Shown here in pieces: positions 47,607 to 49,778 of a DNA stretch of 64,000 nt. The notes below the pieces were generated by a model. The model was not told the origin of the DNA and did no database searches. It saw only the letters and a list, made by a program, of their open reading frames with translations. The stretch is taken from contig NZ_QUNO01000010.1 in assembly GCF_003387475.1 (NCBI RefSeq), forward strand, positions 62,001-126,000, read 5' to 3'. This DNA comes from Kutzneria buriramensis (GTDB lineage: Bacteria > Actinomycetota > Actinomycetes > Mycobacteriales > Pseudonocardiaceae). Each line of letters begins with the position of its first letter. Within the stretch, counting starts at the first letter, position 1. A program made the translations under genes and the position numbers.

Positions 47607-49778
47607 CTATCGTCCCCGGCCACCCTTTTCGGCCCTGACACCGGGTCCGGCGTCCTGGGCGTTCTGCCACTTGTCGTAGGCGTCCACGATGTCCCCGACC
47701 AGCCGGTGGCGCACCACGTCCTGGCTGGTCAGCACCGAGAAGTGGATGTCCGGCACGCCGGCCAGGATCTCCTGCACCACGCGCAGGCCGCTGCGCTGGC
47801 CGCCGGGCAGGTCGACCTGGGTGATGTCGCCGGTCACCACGATCTTGGAGCCGAAGCCCAGGCGGGTGAGGAACATCTTCATCTGCTCGGGCGTGGTGTT
47901 CTGCGCCTCGTCCAGAATGATGAAGGCCTCGTTCAGCGTGTTGTGCGTGACCAGGTAGTCCTCGGTGACGTAGAGCGAGTCGGCCGCCGCCACCTGGATG
48001 CAGACCGCCTCGGCCCGCCCGGCCGGTTCGATGCTGTCGATGAACCGCATCGGACGGCCGCCACCGCCGGCTTCGACGTACTTCCGCTGCTTGCGGGCGA
48101 GACGGAACGGCTCGACTCCCGCGGGAAGCCGGATGTCGATCACGTGCGCGTCGTGCCGGTAGGGCACCGGACGACCGTTGGCGAAGCCGGGCTTCCGGCC
48201 GAGGGCGGGCCGGCAGCGCGTGTAGGCCACGCCGCCGAACGACCGCACCAGGCCGATCACGTCGTCCTTCAGCCTCGACGACGTCGTGACGTACTGGATG
48301 CGGCAGGTTCGGCCGAACTGCGTGACCGGGCCGCCGTCGGAGTCCAGCAGACCCTGCAGCAGCGCGAGCCGAACGTCCGCGGAGTTCTGCAGGTAGACGT
48401 CCGGGATGAACTTCGACTCGGACCGCGTGCCCAGCAGCCCGAGCTCGCGGAGCGCGCCGGTGACCGGGTTCTCGATGGTGATCACTTCGCCGGGCAGCCG
48501 CACCCGGTTGAGGGCGTAGTCGACCCCGCCCCGATGCCGTACGCGCATGCCCGGCAGCGACGCCTCCAGGGCAAGCGCGAGTTCCACGTCGTCGGTCGCG
48601 AAGGCGGGGGTGGTCGAACCGGTCAGGCAGCCGTCGCCGAGGAGCAGGCCCAGGGCGTACGGGTCCATGGGAACAGCCTGCTCGGGGTGGCAGGTCGGCG
48701 CGGCCAGCACCGGCAGCTCGTAGCGACGAGCGTGTGCGGCCCGGAGGTTGCCGATCATCTCCTTGGTCTCGAGCACCCGCCACGGCTTGCCGCGGCGCTT
48801 GTCCGAGGCCGTCTTGACCGCCCAGAGGTGGTCGCCGCAGCACAGGGTGGACGCGCCGTCGCCGGCCGTCACCCGATAGATGTCCTTCTCGCCCTGCGGG
48901 TACACACCGAGCACCGGCGTGGGTTCGCCGTTCGAGCCGATGACCAGGTCGCCGACCTGCAGGGAGCCGATGGGTCGGAAGCCGTCCGGCGTCAGGACCG
49001 GCGTGAAGATCGGTTGGGCCCGACCACGCATATAAGCCAGCGGCGCCACTTCGATGGTGCCGGCCTGCATCAGCCGCGGGATCGACTCCGGCTCGACCAT
49101 GTCGTGCAGCGCGTCGTAGAGCGGCCGCAGGTAGGGGTCGATCTTGTCGAACAGGGTGCCGGGCAGGAAGCCCAGCCGCTCGCCCGCCTCGACCGCCGGC
49201 CGGGTCAGGATGATCCGGCTGACCTGCTTGGCCTGCAACGCCTGCACGGCCTTCGCCATCGCCAGGTAGGTCTTGCCGGTGCCGGCGGGGCCGATGCCGA
49301 ACACGATCGTGTTGGCGTCGATCGCGTCCACGTACCGCTTCTGGTTGAGCGTCTTGGGCCGGATCACCTTGCCGCGCCGGGACAGGATGTCCAGGCTGAG
49401 CACCTCGGCCGGCGACTCGGCGTCGCCGCCCTCCAGCATCGCGACGGTGCGCCGGACCGCGTCCGGGCCGACCTGCTGGCCGCCGCGGGCCAGGGTGACC
49501 AGCTCGGTGAACACCCGCTCGGCGAAGGCGACGTCGGCGGGCCGGCCGGTCAGCGTCACCTCGTTGCCGCGGACGTGCACGTCGGCGTCCAGCAGCTCCT
49601 CGGCGGCCCGGAGGCTTTCGTCGCGGGAGCCCAGCAGGGCCAGCACCGCCTCGTCGGGAACGGTGAACCGGGACTGGGCGTCCGCCTCGGCGATCGAACC
49701 CGCCGGCGACGAACCGTTCTTGGGTGTGGTGGCGTTCTCCCCGGAACGGGCAGCTCCGCCCTGTGCGCTTGACGGCAC
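47607..49778 (-). CDS. phoH: PhoH-like ATPase interrupted by an intein
   Basis: The 723-residue reading frame is a PhoH (YbeZ-type) ATPase of 363 residues split by a 360-residue intein at 254-613. Extein parts show an N-terminal RNA-binding-like region, Walker A GPAGTGKT (163-170) and Walker [10 protein letters not shown] (619-627). The insertion lies just before that Walker B strand, between YMRGR and TLNEA, a highly conserved site. PhoH works with YbeY on RNA and ribosome quality control. Activity depends on splicing, because the insert splits the ATPase core. GTG start. Confidence 0.95.
47940..49019 (-). mobile_element. Class 3-type intein with LAGLIDADG homing endonuclease, in phoH
   Basis: Codes for residues 254-613. 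The N-terminal residue is Ala254, not Cys or Ser. Block B has H317 and W319 (GDHLW), block F has C593 (AVCIQV) and block G ends VTHN with T611, H612, N613; the +1 residue is Thr614. A1 together with this W-C-T triplet defines class 3 inteins, which splice through the block F Cys. Two LAGLIDADG-like motifs, [10 protein letters not shown] (374-383) and [10 protein letters not shown] (474-483), mark an apparently intact homing endonuclease. Composition resembles the host, suggesting long residence. Confidence 0.9.

Follow-up and report, generated by a model that had tools for sequence, protein, structure and literature searches.

An intein in the PhoH protein of Kutzneria buriramensis

The phoH gene of the soil actinobacterium Kutzneria buriramensis contains an in-frame insert of 360 residues, which is best explained as a class 3 intein of full length that carries a LAGLIDADG homing endonuclease, is placed between Arg253 and Thr614 of PhoH, splices and is mobile (probability about 0.93 for this reading as a whole). 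The gene is located on the minus strand, as are its parts and the downstream ybeY gene, at positions 47607..49778 of the window (the 64,000-nucleotide stretch that was analysed from a genome of 11.97 Mb in 65 contigs); it starts with a GTG codon as listed and encodes 723 residues plus the stop codon, with zero internal stops. The Pfam PhoH domain (PF02562, E 2.4e-89) was matched in two stretches, which abut at profile positions 117 and 116 in a whole-genome profile search, and subtraction of the intein leaves a PhoH of 723-360 = 363 residues. The N-extein (residues 1-253, 49020..49778) ends in YMRGR and matches PDB 3b85 (E 2.6e-61), and the C-extein (residues 614-723, 47610..47939) was defined from the frame translation and PF02562. 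Both motifs of the ATPase domain can be read, with an uninterrupted Walker A GTGKT and Walker B LDEAQ at residues 622-626, and the insertion site (RGR/T, the slash marking the insertion) is eight residues before LDEAQ, in agreement with the proposed position just upstream of Walker B. The next gene downstream is ybeY (rRNA maturation RNase, 47044..47610, frame as scanned, TIGR00043 E 8.6e-48), and YbeZ/PhoH-like proteins are described as conserved partners of the ribosome assembly factor YbeY (PMC10582724). Other neighbours match the CNNM/CorC-like, HinT-like histidine triad and RsmE families (45749-47035, 49885-50250 and 51652-52383, respectively).

The boundaries of the insert were compared with the intein-free phoH genes of relatives, and in all 30 such loci (L011-L040) MRGR (29) or LRGR (1) is joined directly to TLN or SLN. 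The 360-residue insert, which the initial annotation had predicted to be exact, is confirmed as real, exact and intact.

Class 3 inteins are defined by a Trp-Cys-Thr triplet in blocks B, F and G, and by the block F Cys acting as first nucleophile with none at position 1 (PMC6195587, PMC7664689, PMC5050341). The Kutzneria insert (residues 254-613, 47940..49019) starts with Ala254, which is not a Cys or Ser nucleophile, and contains the full triplet: Trp319 in the block B sequence His317-Leu318-Trp319 (48822..48830), Cys593 in block F as the predicted initiating nucleophile (48000..48002), and Thr611 in block G, followed by the penultimate His612 and the terminal Asn613 (47940..47948), with Thr614 as the +1 residue and first residue of the C-extein (47937..47939). 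The residues named in the initial annotation (A254, W319, C593, T611, H612, N613 and T614) were thus all found where claimed. In an alignment of 143 distinct PhoH inteins (53 from the order sample and 73 from named genomes, with 17 more from other samples), H317, L318, W319, C593, T611, H612 and N613 are invariant (143/143), and 142 inteins have Thr and one has Pro at +1, which argues against an insert assembled by chance. Position 1 is Ala in 129/143 and Ser in 14/143 (L092, L173, L175, L181 and 10 more loci), the latter with a complete class 3 triplet. A fold match points to a HINT splicing fold, and the assignment of the phoH insert to the class 3 inteins, with an endonuclease of the LAGLIDADG type, is supported by the combination of empty-site comparison, invariant residues, fold match and kinship to viral inteins.

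If splicing takes the same course as in characterised class 3 inteins, Cys593 would attack the Arg253-Ala254 bond, the N-extein would then be transferred to Thr614, and cyclisation of Asn613 would free the 363-residue PhoH. One of the PhoH inteins (L120:1196-3499, minus strand, genome G026) retains the complete set of class 3 residues and the two endonuclease Asp residues, yet has a Pro at +1 (codon CCT), which should block normal splicing; L120 may be a non-splicing allele, and such alleles may thus exist among PhoH inteins. That the Kutzneria intein is itself splicing-dead, leaving PhoH as fragments or as a dead precursor, is highly improbable, as this copy retains all catalytic residues and the Thr at +1, and dN/dS values of 0.11 to 0.22 were obtained for the splicing part over the five pairs in which it takes part.

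Distribution of PhoH inteins

PhoH is split at the same place in 10/41 genomes, Kutzneria buriramensis included; within this set, G030 gave only a PhoH2-type match, and PhoH of G037 (L040) is broken elsewhere (142/140). When the search was expanded to samples of the order and the phylum, a match was obtained in 87/397 genomes of the order (E 1e-15 or better) and in 24/396 genomes of the phylum. The order sample includes 53 PhoH-type loci (L120 counted, two repeats, L111 and L150, omitted), all located after RGR and all bearing the W, C, T, H and N residues, and with Thr at +1 in 52 and Pro in one; the RGR/T site of PhoH is hence also used in other genomes of the order. The number of 53 is a lower bound, with six of the 34 other matching genomes read (G033, G342, G301, G084, G133 and G309), which contained other inteins. 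Relatives are encoded at 381 loci of named genomes, and the best 80 of these 381 are all PhoH inteins, from Streptomyces, Lentzea, Pseudonocardia, Saccharothrix, Amycolatopsis and others; seven of these 80 are identical to inteins in the other samples, and the best 80 are biased to full-length copies because the search patterns fall in the endonuclease. The PhoH intein is common in actinobacteria, with many of the best 80 of 381 in Streptomyces and Pseudonocardiaceae.

Endonuclease domain and mobility

The two LAGLIDADG motifs of the initial annotation are located at residues 374-385 (48624..48659) and 474-483 (48330..48359), and each contains one catalytic Asp, D382 and D481, which align to PI-SceI positions 218 and 326 and are each conserved in 136/143 PhoH inteins. 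The annotation of two motifs stands on this alignment, with Pfam scoring a single LAGLIDADG_3 (PF14528) stretch at residues 468-523. By homing, the endonuclease would target the RGR/TLN codons of intein-free phoH for cleavage, and this would lead to gain of the intein. The intein behaves as an element that is gained and lost, mainly between close relatives.

In a tree of the PhoH exteins of 40 relatives, 10 bear the intein and its presence required 10 changes, which is not below the number obtained after shuffling of the labels (mean 9.1); when only the well-supported branches are counted, a minimum of 6 changes is still needed. The closest PhoH relatives of Kutzneria buriramensis include the intein-free L036 and L031. 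In the trees of 75 rows (L202 omitted here and from the synonymous divergence control, as its extein looked mis-assembled), the inteins of Kutzneria, Lentzea, Pseudonocardia and Actinoallomurus form one clade each, those of Saccharothrix and Streptomyces are not single clades, and for the family Streptomycetaceae 5 changes were needed in the intein tree, compared to 2 in the extein tree. There was little sign of intergenus transfer in these genus-level trees. As most of the tested genera are single intein clades, it seems that either the exchange of inteins takes place mainly among close relatives, or loss is frequent.

The same clades, formed by the majority of genera, would also be expected if the intein were an old resident which splices constitutively, with a mostly inert endonuclease and a patchy distribution due to repeated loss. 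This is possible but rather unlikely: a catalytic Asp has been lost in 6/53 PhoH inteins of the order sample and 4/53 are shortened to 257-328 residues, but both Asp residues are retained in 47/53, which is unexpected for an inert endonuclease. The same is true for the purifying selection on the endonuclease part, where the median dN/dS over 81 close pairs (which are not independent) was 0.14, compared to 0.05 for the extein and 0.07 for the splicing part. Precise loss of an intein is also a rare event, which counts further against an old resident, and we therefore prefer the mobile, full-length intein.

Synonymous divergence was considered as an indicator of separate acquisitions in the three Kutzneria genomes, in which the intein shows an excess over the extein. 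This was dropped, since in a control of 4317 pairs the synonymous divergence of inteins is generally about 2.4 times that of the exteins (median ratio 2.42 at an extein dS of 0.1-0.2, with a 10-90% range of 1.25-3.44, and 2.46 at 0.2-0.3), and the excess in Kutzneria is hence of little use as evidence for separate acquisitions. One pair of the three Kutzneria genomes has a ratio of 5.7, above the 10-90% range. No PhoH dS was taken from L137, which contains 297 N. This locus belongs to G001, a genome of the same genus that was assigned to Kutzneria sp. 744, as the 60-base words of L137 that are free of N (69/69) all recur in the named locus L159.

Related inteins and the insertion site

A tree was built from 14 PhoH inteins together with 33 other relatives, and the PhoH inteins form one clade in it (100/100). 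Eight loci which were weak, partial or PhoH itself were omitted from this tree (L006, L007, L008, L010, L100, L111, L112 and L120), and the 33 non-PhoH rows include near-copies (L051/L052 and L045/L046/L047). These relatives are viral and bacterial class 3 inteins of SNF2-type helicase, ClpB-like, RecG, terminase-like and viral PhoH hosts, named from Pfam only for SNF2 (L043), PhoH (L044) and RecG (L109) and otherwise from a reading of the flanks. They share the W, C, T and HN residues with the PhoH clade (33/33), whereas their insertion sites differ: 31/33 are flanked by GK on the N-terminal side and by Ser or Thr on the C-terminal side, as in Walker A. L050 (KST/T) and L105 (ADE/T) deviate from this, and L232, which is outside the tree, is likewise not located after GK. 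The position of the PhoH clade at RGR/T, in a family otherwise mostly found at GK/S or GK/T, indicates that this intein lineage has changed sites. RGR/T has only the order Gly-basic-Thr in common with GK/T, a likeness that may have aided the move of the PhoH lineage.

A viral PhoH (L044:2752-4689, plus strand, IMGVR_UViG_3300032322_002195; PF02562 E 5.5e-53) contains a class 3 intein after GPPGCGK. It was rejected as a same-site relative, as it is located in Walker A and not at RGR/T, and this class 3 family has thus entered PhoH at two sites. The 'PhoH' of phage GX15bay (L232:1517-4336, MK557849.1) was rejected as a donor, as Pfam does not recognise a PhoH domain in this protein at E 1e-5; its only Pfam match is to the intein endonuclease, its gene is located between the terminase and portal genes, and it may owe its name to the intein. 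Besides the PhoH intein, the Kutzneria buriramensis genome contains another class 3-type intein, which interrupts a DnaB-like P-loop (G000:C4:84470-85699; L005, L006), with flanks GVGK/ALALDT...THN/STL and about 33% identity. Class 3 inteins in RecG, located after GSGK, were found in several actinobacteria (L109 by Pfam; L101, L106, L110, L142 and L148 by their flanks).

Cysteines of block B

The Kutzneria intein contains a vicinal Cys313-Cys314 pair in block B (48837..48842), placed at -4 and -3 relative to His317 in the alignment of PhoH inteins. At -3, 126 of the 143 PhoH inteins have Cys, 12 have Ser and 5 have Thr, and at -4, 102/143 have Cys and 41/143 have Ala or Ser; in the order sample, Cys is found in 40/53 and 26/53 at these positions, respectively. 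The 33 non-PhoH relatives have Asp (18), Cys (11), Ser (2) or Gly (2) at -3. The DnaBi1 intein of M. smegmatis, also of class 3, undergoes a reversible block, either by a disulfide that joins the catalytic Cys118 to Cys48 (PMC6195587) or by zinc (PMC7360933), and redox control by the block B pair is therefore conceivable: Cys313 or Cys314 could form a disulfide with Cys593, or zinc could be bound, under stress, leaving PhoH unspliced. Such a redox or metal switch would fit the Cys frequencies at both positions in the full set, but the many relatives with Ser, Thr or Ala in place of Cys (17/143 at -3) and the lower frequencies in the order sample keep it hypothetical. In addition, Cys, Ser or Thr at -3 may just be the equivalent of the Thr of class 1 block B, and Cys48 of DnaBi1 is located elsewhere when counted from the block B His. 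We consider this switch quite unlikely, and slightly more doubtful still is the version in which Cys313-Cys314 traps Cys593 during oxidative or electrophilic stress to hold PhoH as an inactive precursor, with the wide, patchy spread of the intein due to selection for the switch together with homing. Regulation of PhoH through splicing, by whichever means, is no more than a possibility, and so is the gating of PhoH/YbeY by conditional splicing that the initial annotation considered.

Comparison with known inteins

The points of note are the insertion site, the patchy spread and the block B cysteines. The PhoH intein provides a full-length class 3 intein with an endonuclease for tests of homing and conditional splicing, and empty and full phoH sites occur naturally within one genus.

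The suggestion in the initial annotation that a PhoH intein might be new does not hold, since class 3 PhoH inteins of M. fortuitum (OBK00716) and M. xenopi (EID13626) were aligned with DnaB inteins in 2018 (PMC6195587), and M. smegmatis is described as having one intein in PhoH (PMC7360933). The available text of these two papers includes no splicing assay of a PhoH intein. Compared by description, these mycobacterial inteins share the host protein with the Kutzneria intein, class 3 being stated for the first two. The structures of MsmDnaBi1 (6bs8) and MchDnaB1 (6rix/6riy) have the splicing fold, WCT triplet and HN residues in common with the PhoH intein, as well as Ala1 for MsmDnaBi1. MsmDnaBi1 lacks an endonuclease, is located at the DnaB P-loop and has Asp at position -3 of block B (PMC6195587), whereas the Kutzneria intein has a full endonuclease, the RGR/T site and Cys at -3. 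The VMA intein PI-SceI shares the whole fold and the pair of LAGLIDADG Asp residues with the PhoH intein, at about 20% identity; it comes from a yeast host and uses class 1 chemistry. The PhoH intein of Kutzneria buriramensis is therefore a genuine, well-formed and largely ordinary intein, of a kind already reported from mycobacteria.
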